Virus record (IMG/VR): IMGVR_UViG_3300028025_001874 | Span: 1 to 28,509 of that record | Length of the DNA: 28,509 nucleotides | Source of the DNA: a virus | Strand: one strand, 5' to 3' | Shown here: positions 16,787 to 19,967 of the stretch, piece after piece | Layout: the number at the start of each line of letters is the position of its first letter | Numbering within the stretch: the first letter of the stretch is position 1 | The notes under the pieces: model-generated | What the model was told of the DNA's origin: nothing | The model's database searches: none | Seen by the model: only the letters and a program-made list of their open reading frames with translations | Program-made: the position numbers and the translations under genes

Positions 16787-16937
16787 GCAATGGGCTAGGG
16801 GCAACTACCCCGATGTGGACAAGATGTGGCAATTACAAAGAGAAAAGTCAGAGAGGCTAAAAAATGGAGATTATTTCACCAGGACACATCATCCAGGAGC
16901 TTCAGAGACTAACAGCGGAGATGGACAAGGGCAGTAA
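16737..16937 (+). CDS. small polar protein, function unknown
   Basis: About 66 residues if ATG 16737 is used (MNILIASLREVQECL...). The core, EQWARGNYPDVDKMWQLQRE, reads like a genuine helical protein and fills the 77-base gap between the annealing gene and the next coiled-coil gene. It overlaps both, by 50 and 74 bases, and no convincing ribosome site precedes any of its possible starts (16707 TTG, 16722 ATG, 16737 ATG). The boundaries are uncertain. Confidence 0.45.
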   Translation: MNILIASLREVQECLNEQWARGNYPDVDKMWQLQREKSERLKNGDYFTRTHHPGASETNSGDGQGQ

Positions 16938-17202
16938 CGCCCTCTATGACGCTGAGTGCAAGATGGCTGATGCCGAGGCTGCTTACGACAAAGCTGTATC
17001 ACTAGCTTTCATAAACAACCAAGGAACCGTGGCTGACAGGCAGGCTGTGGCTAAGTTGCAGTCAGTAGATCAAAAGCTACAAGCTGACCTAGCCAGAGCT
17101 GAGTTCAATAGAGTCAAAACCAAGATGAAAACCCTGTCAGACCAGGCAACAATGATGGCTGTAATGTCCAAAAATGTTGAGCTTCAGTGGCGGACACCCT
17201 AG
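16864..17202 (+). CDS. coiled-coil protein, function unknown
   Basis: A 112-residue, almost wholly helical protein (IIQELQRLTAEMDKGSNALYDAECKMADAEAAYDK ... ADLARAEFNRVKTKMKTLSD, shown in parts). GAGAGG lies 7 bases before the ATG. Proteins with this heptad layout, carrying a conserved AEAAYDKAxxxAF segment, are common in actinophage recombination/replication blocks, but I know of no assigned function. The product is probably oligomeric. Confidence 0.7.
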   Translation: MEIISPGHIIQELQRLTAEMDKGSNALYDAECKMADAEAAYDKAVSLAFINNQGTVADRQAVAKLQSVDQKLQADLARAEFNRVKTKMKTLSDQATMMAVMSKNVELQWRTP

Positions 17203-17218
17203 CTGGTAGCCTTGAAAG

Positions 17219-17437
17219 GTGATTGCTGAAAGCTGCTCATGTGGGGCAAAGTTCAAAACTGACGATGCCAAGGCGATAGCCCTAGTCAGAGAATGGCGCA
17301 GGAAACACAACTGTCAGGAAGCTGCATCCGAAACACGAGACTATGAAATTAGCTCGACTATCGGTTTTTCGGCTGATTACACTGGCACAGGACTAGACCT
17401 ACCCGCAAAGAAATACGACCCTTGGGAAGATGAATAG
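17219..17437 (+). CDS. small zinc-ribbon-like protein
   Basis: A 72-residue protein from a GTG start (IAESCSCGAKFKTDD ... WRRKHNCQEA). The C-x-C and H-x-C pairs about 22 residues apart look like a single zinc site. The acidic C-terminus ends YDPWEDE. The ribosome site is poor. The gene overlaps the downstream HNH gene by 8 bases. The same zinc arrangement occurs in small phage proteins of unknown function, possibly DNA-binding. Confidence 0.6.
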   Translation: MIAESCSCGAKFKTDDAKAIALVREWRRKHNCQEAASETRDYEISSTIGFSADYTGTGLDLPAKKYDPWEDE

Positions 17438-19400: not shown

Positions 19401-19558
19401 GAATCATCCAATGGCTTCTCCCGTCATCTACTGGACTACTTTTGCTAAACCTATCTAAGACAGCAGAAGGACTCTGGAATGTGGCGGGAGTCGCTGTTGG
19501 AGTTTTTTACATCTGGGCTGGCCTCAGTGCCGCCTGGATGATTTATGTCAGAAACTGA
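19397..19558 (+). CDS. 53-residue membrane protein between ssb and rusA
   Basis: A TTG start overlaps the SSB stop as TTGA; GGAG lies 10 bases upstream. The product MRIIQWLLPSSTGLLLL... has one weaker and one strong hydrophobic segment (VAGVAVGVFYIWAGLSAAWM) and ends YVRN. It fills the 144-base gap before the resolvase gene and overlaps that gene by 14 bases. Small membrane proteins in early operons often mediate superinfection exclusion or host interference; here that is only a possibility. Confidence 0.55.
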   Translation: MRIIQWLLPSSTGLLLLNLSKTAEGLWNVAGVAVGVFYIWAGLSAAWMIYVRN

Positions 19559-19967
19559 ATTTACAATCTCCGTAGTCGGAGACCCTGCCTCTCAGGGATC
19601 ACACGCCATTATGAACGGGCGAATCGTTCAGGTCAATTCTAAAAAACACAAGGCTTGGCGCTCAGCTATTGTCAGTGCCTGTATTGACAACCTGCCTGAC
19701 GGCTGGGAACCGCTAGACGAGCCAGTAAAGCTGAGTGTAAATTTCTACATGCCGAAAGGAAAATCCGTGAGTCGGGGGTTGCCAACTGTAGCCCCTGACC
19801 TTTGACTTGACAAACTAATCAGGGCAGTCGGAGACGCTCTAGCCATAGCTGGCGTTTATGCAGATGACTCCCGCATAGTCCGCATAAGCGCTCGCAAGCT
19901 GTATGCCATAGGCATAGAACCAGGCGCAACTATCTCGGTAAAAACTATGCGACACGCCGAAGAATAA
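19545..19967 (+). CDS. rusA: RusA-type Holliday junction resolvase, interrupted by in-frame TGA
   Basis: The first part, 19545-19805 (86 residues, FTISVVGDPASQGSH ... GLPTVAPDL), ends at TGA 19803-19805. The same frame then continues open to TAA 19965-19967 with LDKLIRAVGDALAIAGVYADDSR and a normal RusA C-terminus. The stop falls inside the catalytic D-x-D motif (PDL-stop-LDKL). Skipping the six bases TGACTT between two CTT codons restores PDLDKL, and the next catalytic Asp (YADD) is then 19 residues on, as between D72 and D91 of E. coli RusA. The gene is therefore either a very fresh knockout, a recoded gene, or a sequence error. RusA cuts Holliday junctions in phage recombination. Confidence 0.75.

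Follow-up and report, generated by a model that had tools for sequence, protein, structure and literature searches.

The rusA gene and its interruption

The locus described here raises the question of how a phage gene can encode a Holliday-junction resolvase when a stop codon lies in the middle of its catalytic motif. The window, that is the whole stretch of 28,509 nt analysed (IMG/VR virus record IMGVR_UViG_3300028025_001874), carries rusA at 19545-19967, and apart from a TGA at 19803-19805 the frame is open from the ATG at 19545 to the TAA at 19965-19967. The preliminary description placed this TGA inside the RusA catalytic motif PDLDKL and between identical CTT codons, and the sequence at 19788-19814 bears this out (GTA GCC CCT GAC CTT TGA CTT GAC AAA, with the two CTT codons at 19800-19802 and 19806-19808 and the GAC at 19809-19811). 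The first part of the gene (19545-19802, plus strand) consists of 86 codons, ends in ...VAPDL and encodes the N-terminal part of the resolvase, as judged from Pfam PF05866 and from relatives. The second part (19809-19967, plus strand) runs from DKL to RHAEE in 52 codons plus the TAA, and encodes the C-terminal part, including a catalytic Asp and the DDSRI motif. As had been claimed, the downstream frame is intact and has no usable start, with no in-frame ATG, GTG or TTG found within ~25 codons 3′ of the TGA.

When the six bases TGACTT are left out, PDLDKL is restored in the window protein, in agreement with the skip suggested earlier, and the joined protein covers the whole Pfam RusA domain (PF05866, profile positions 4-123 of 124, E 5.7e-15). 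PDLDK (P84, D85, L86, D87 and K88), D105, D106 and K116 are invariant among 24 diverse uninterrupted relatives, in none of which is there an insertion within the PDLDK block. In an AlphaFold2 model of one uninterrupted relative, L003 (mean pLDDT 88), the block forms the start of a helix spanning residues 86-100, and the fold of the model matches that of E. coli RusA (1q8r, E 2e-8). By profile, fold and catalytic residues the window gene is thus a RusA Holliday-junction resolvase with predicted resolvase activity, and the enzyme would probably suffer from any extra residues where the helix begins.

Interrupted alleles in other viral contigs

Searched with the joined protein, IMG/VR yielded 64 close relatives, most of them uninterrupted (...PDLDKL...) and a minority interrupted at exactly the same codon boundary. 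Combining this protein scan with two DNA-pattern scans and an alignment scan of IMG/VR, we counted interrupted rusA genes in 21 contigs in addition to the window, making 22 contigs and 18 distinct alleles. In all 18, a stop codon directly follows PDL (TGA in 13, TAA in 4 and TAG in 1), a C directly follows the stop, and the gap, 6, 9 or 10 nt in length, ends exactly before DKL. The 6-nt gaps are TGACTT (19803-19808 in the window) and TAGCTG, the 9-nt gaps TGACCGCTG, TGACCGCTA, TGACCGGTT, TAACGGCCC and TGACCATTT, and the 10-nt gaps, which occur in five alleles and displace the downstream frame there, TAACCGGCTT, TGACCGGCTT and TGACAGGCTC. Besides the C after the stop, the interrupted alleles have an upstream hairpin in common (see below). 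An AGR codon bias after DKLx was also considered as a shared feature and was rejected, being non-universal, as one relative (L214) has CGC.

The comparison with relatives therefore shows the interruption to be conserved at one codon boundary. A sequencing error is rejected because 21 other contigs are interrupted alike, and so is the very recent insertion initially named as the main alternative, which is also ruled out by the occurrence of the interruption in several separate rusA lineages, with three stop codons, three gap lengths and strong purifying selection downstream. It had been reasoned that uninterrupted relatives combined with decay of the downstream frame would speak against a functional interruption; uninterrupted relatives do exist, but the decay is absent. 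Stop codon reassignment was likewise rejected, since TGA, TAA and TAG all occur as the interrupting stop and other genes are uninterrupted: in a gene-by-gene comparison of the window and nine related contigs, rusA was the sole gene to be consistently interrupted, and each stop-allele record searched encodes one RusA, namely the interrupted one.

Two observations concern stop codons elsewhere. In a group of relatives with a MAEVSF-type protein (L013, L014, L015, L016 and L061-L063), the 3′ end of rusA reads ...KSLE, a stop and then in-frame RHAEK, which is suggestive of a relic or of another interruption close to the C-terminus; in the window's group this place has ...KTMRHAEE and no stop. In contig L173 (position 11845, minus strand), a TGA stands in frame in place of one codon, without any insert (AQA*ATITC versus AQAMATITC). 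The site is close to the signal-peptide-like beginning of a gene whose five related query genes are open, and the TGA may reflect a nonsense allele, an error or a start further downstream.

Which decoding rule restores RusA

Four ways of decoding the interruption can be compared over the 18 alleles. A hop over the gap keeps the downstream frame in 18/18 and always yields PDLDKL; readthrough in the zero frame keeps it in 13/18, including the window, and fails in all five 10-nt alleles; a +1 shift keeps it in these 5/18 and fails in the window and in 13/18 overall; a -1 shift never does (0/18). Since the gaps measure 6, 9 and 10 nt, no common readthrough or frameshift exists, and bypassing is, as far as the allele sequences go, the sole single rule that restores RusA in all of them. 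The translational bypassing proposed in the preliminary description is supported in this respect. The T4 gene 60 layout that it invoked is found in part: the stop stands right after the take-off codon in 18/18 alleles, but a matching landing codon is less general, the triplet before DKL being CTN in 13/18 alleles and 7/10 distinct gaps, and GTT, CCC or TTT in the rest. The resemblance to an RF2 shift site did not prove to be a general feature, as the 7-mer CTTTGAC is private to the window allele (the others carry CTCTGAC, CTCTAAC or CTCTAGC at this site). An RF2-like +1 shift was itself rejected, the +1 frame of the window reaching a stop after four codons.

Selection on the downstream part points to its translation. 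Over 45 codons 3′ of the gap, read in the resumed frame, dN/dS is 0.11 for all 18 alleles, and it is 0.15 downstream when the five 10-nt alleles, with their displaced frame, are taken by themselves. No further stop, frameshift or other lesion was found downstream of the gap in any of the 18 alleles. The pattern across alleles is thus of the kind expected of a translated sequence, from which we infer that the downstream part is translated.

A hairpin directly upstream of the stop

The decisive element, missed in the preliminary description, is an RNA hairpin directly 5′ of the proposed take-off codon. In the window this stem-loop occupies 19769-19802 (plus strand), with arms at 19769-19782 and 19788-19802 and a loop at 19783-19787. 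Its core consists of 12 pairs, 19771-19782 with 19788-19799, and an outer GAG (19769-19771) can form three pairs with the take-off codon (19800-19802) if the outermost core pair is given up. Over 14 pairs and the 18 interrupted alleles, 98.8% of the pair cells are formed. The sequence common to these alleles is GTG AGT CGG GGG ... GCY CCY GAY CTY; the codons GTG AGT CGG GGG are invariant in 17 interrupted alleles, whereas the V63 codon varies freely in uninterrupted ones.

When codons were redrawn synonymously with the protein held fixed (1000 randomisations per allele), the hairpin was found in 17/17 interrupted alleles tested, with z from -5.0 to -6.6 (about -6 on average, and -5.5 in the window) and, to three decimals, 0 of 1000 randomisations as low in any allele. 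It was absent from all 34 uninterrupted alleles tested, for which the mean z was +0.8, and the 18th interrupted allele keeps it as well. Substitutions in the stem are mostly pairing-preserving (GC to GU, UG to CG); double compensatory changes were not found among the interrupted alleles, because the hairpin is nearly invariant. A peptide, P[RK]GK[ST]VSRGLP, accompanies the stop allele, and since its codons also form the hairpin, any stimulation by the nascent peptide would be inseparable from that by the hairpin. We also considered a take-off loop downstream, as in gene 60. A hairpin starting from the take-off codon is attractive in some folds, with 79% of cells paired, but with gap and protein fixed it is no better than synonymous codon choice (mean z -0.4), and having failed this test a second hairpin is not claimed.

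The RNA element had no Rfam match at E up to 1. By the patterns tried, no hairpin-stop module was found in other genes in IMG/VR: apart from rusA, a looser scan returned nothing but chance matches, a good many of which look like opposite-strand tRNA genes, and a tighter one returned 21 contigs, all with rusA alleles.

A model for stop hopping

We propose that rusA is expressed via programmed translational bypassing, or stop hopping, of 6-10 nt driven by the upstream hairpin, and we assign this reading a probability of about 75%. Ribosomes would translate the 86 codons of the first part until the Leu codon (CTT 19800-19802 in the window, CTC in the other 17 distinct alleles) reaches the P site, while the A site is occupied by a TRR-C stop, at which termination would be weak. 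Peptidyl-tRNA-Leu would then detach, the mRNA would move by 6 nt in the window and by 9 or 10 nt in the relatives, and the peptidyl-tRNA would land just 5′ of GAY AAR, in the window presumably on CTT 19806-19808, so that translation would resume at GAC AAA and give a normal PDLDKL active site. A ribosome positioned on the take-off codon would keep the hairpin unfolded, with the right arm inside the ribosome or at its exit. Movement of the mRNA would free this arm, and the hairpin could re-zip behind the ribosome and pull the mRNA forward; a forward-driving role of this kind has been suggested for the 5′ stem-loop of T4 gene 60 (PMC5009743, PMC11194080). Sliding on gene 60 loses only ~1% of ribosomes per nucleotide, with gaps of up to 56 nt (PMC11194080), from which it follows that a slide of 6-10 nt should in principle pose little difficulty. 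The bypassing model is weakest at the landing step, as a Leu tRNA that reads CTC makes poor pairs with GTT, CCC or TTT. The efficiency of the hop and any regulatory benefit, like the hop itself, its take-off and landing triplets and the motor role of the hairpin, are what we infer from the allele comparison.

Alternative explanations

A combination of readthrough in alleles with 6-nt and 9-nt gaps, where two or three residues would be added between PDL and DKL, with +1 frameshifting at the CTC-stop in the 10-nt alleles would dispense with hopping altogether. Both mechanisms are far commoner than hopping, each keeps the downstream frame in its own subset of alleles (13/18 and 5/18), and stops followed by a C are leaky. 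One would have to accept, however, two mechanisms for one conserved element in which all three stop codons are used, a +1 slip in which the P-site CUC re-pairs poorly on UCU, and products (PDLDRLDKL or PDLNRLDKL for the +1 shift) with added residues at what the model places as the start of the active-site helix, where the 24 diverse relatives have PDLDK without insertion. We regard this combination as improbable. It is also rather improbable that the interrupted alleles are dead and yield only the 86-residue N-terminal product, the downstream part being conserved through recombination with intact alleles. The scattering of the interrupted allele among lineages implies that recombination is common, and the interrupted state is polymorphic in the phage group, as such an explanation would have it. 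Yet a dead allele would need neither a near-invariant hairpin, with z near -6, nor a stop at one codon in three spellings, and one would not expect it to be free of a second lesion in 18/18 cases or to show the low downstream dN/dS, even in the frame-displaced group.

Much less credit still can be given to two further explanations. Termination followed by re-initiation just downstream could give two RusA pieces that assemble, and coupled termination and re-initiation is common in phages. In nine alleles, including that of the window, the first 25 codons of the resumed frame nevertheless contain neither ATG nor GTG nor TTG, the position of the start codon differs between alleles where one exists, and the second piece would be missing a catalytic Asp. 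A removal of the gap at the RNA level, by a tiny intron, RNA editing or polymerase skipping, is just as doubtful: RNA processing could conceivably be guided by a hairpin beside a gap of variable length, but Rfam offers no match within the range searched, the gap ends share no sequence beyond TRRC, and we know of no spliced intron of this kind of 6-10 nt. Stop hopping thus remains our preferred reading.

Origin, spread and host

Distant relatives are uninterrupted, and the interruption is thus derived. The two states are polymorphic within the phage group, and the interrupted one is scattered over the trees of both the upstream part of rusA and the downstream part, with 11 and 4 changes, respectively, of which well-supported branches force at least 2 in the upstream tree and at least 3 in the downstream tree. 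The interruption has probably been spread by recombination or lost repeatedly, as far as these trees indicate, and part of the conservation described above may reflect descent and recombination of one element and not many independent tests. A homing endonuclease adjoining rusA as the cause of the insert was unsupported, with one HNH protein among 76 neighbouring proteins. The chances seem to us evenly balanced that hairpin, Leu codon and leaky stop form a transferable natural stop-hop module, which would carry ribosomes over gaps of 6, 9 or 10 nt even where the landing codon is not strictly matched, and would have spread between rusA lineages by recombination while leaving the protein unchanged.

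The phage host is probably an actinobacterium, to go by sequence similarity: of the named relatives of the window exonuclease, the nearest, with 46% identity, comes from Pontimonas phage phiPsal1, and most of the tape-measure matches belong to phages of Arthrobacter and Microbacterium. Among prokaryote genomes the sole find was a distant, intact RusA in Microbacterium kunmingense, and no stop was seen in the 14 RusA genes found in 13 of 395 genomes of the bacterial class of this species. The window also encodes a glycosyltransferase adjoining the capsid gene (1174-2382; PHROG 2170, E 3.6e-43) and, elsewhere, cytidylyltransferase-like and M23 peptidase proteins, and in contig L179 a fragment of a cytosine-specific DNA methylase (16856-17254) lies ~3 kb from the interrupted rusA.

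Comparison with known bypassing systems

Natural bypassing is well established in yeast mitochondria and, among phage genes, in T4 gene 60 alone, and no report of bypassing for RusA was found in the open-access literature searched. Like gene 60, rusA is a phage gene with a stop right after the take-off codon and a 5′ stem-loop upstream, take-off and landing codons are matched (in most alleles of rusA), and translation would resume in the same or in another frame (PMC5009743, PMC11194080). The two differ in that the gap is 50 nt in gene 60 as opposed to 6, 9 or 10 nt in rusA, and in that the take-off codon is Gly GGA in the former and Leu CTC or CTT in the latter, where the landing codon is not strictly matched. 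Furthermore, neither a take-off nor a 3′ stem-loop is supported in rusA, and gene 60 encodes a topoisomerase subunit whose sequence is unrelated to that of the RusA resolvase. The 7-mer CTTTGAC of the RF2 (prfB) +1 site is present in the window as in prfB, but other alleles carry CTC instead.

In the synthetic stop-hops studied in E. coli, matched codons flank a stop and 9 nt are decoded as one amino acid, exactly the arrangement of CTT TGA CTT in the window. Unlike these, the rusA interruption is natural and conserved, has an upstream hairpin and occurs with 9- and 10-nt gaps too. According to a 2016 review, no natural occurrence of in-frame stop hopping was known (PMC5009743). The byps of Magnusiomyces capitatus mitochondria resemble the rusA gaps in being short untranslated blocks within coding sequences, several with imperfect take-off and landing matches (PMC5009743), but they are mitochondrial, number 81 sites in many genes and are said to be independent of mRNA context, whereas rusA is a single gene with a strong hairpin. 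Bypassing has also been suggested for two actinophage genes, the terminase gene of Streptomyces phage Hau3 and the tape-measure gene of Corndog (PMC5009743; PMC4351075); these are other genes with other layouts, and no allele series with several gap lengths is known to us for them.

The interrupted rusA is therefore best called a candidate for natural stop hopping, a short-gap and variable-gap bypassing of a very rare kind. The 18 alleles of this family form a natural series in which three gap lengths and three stops occur, with uninterrupted sister alleles as controls, so that take-off, hop distance and landing are directly testable on short rusA-derived constructs. More generally, stops that interrupt genes in metagenomes may have a function and need not be errors.
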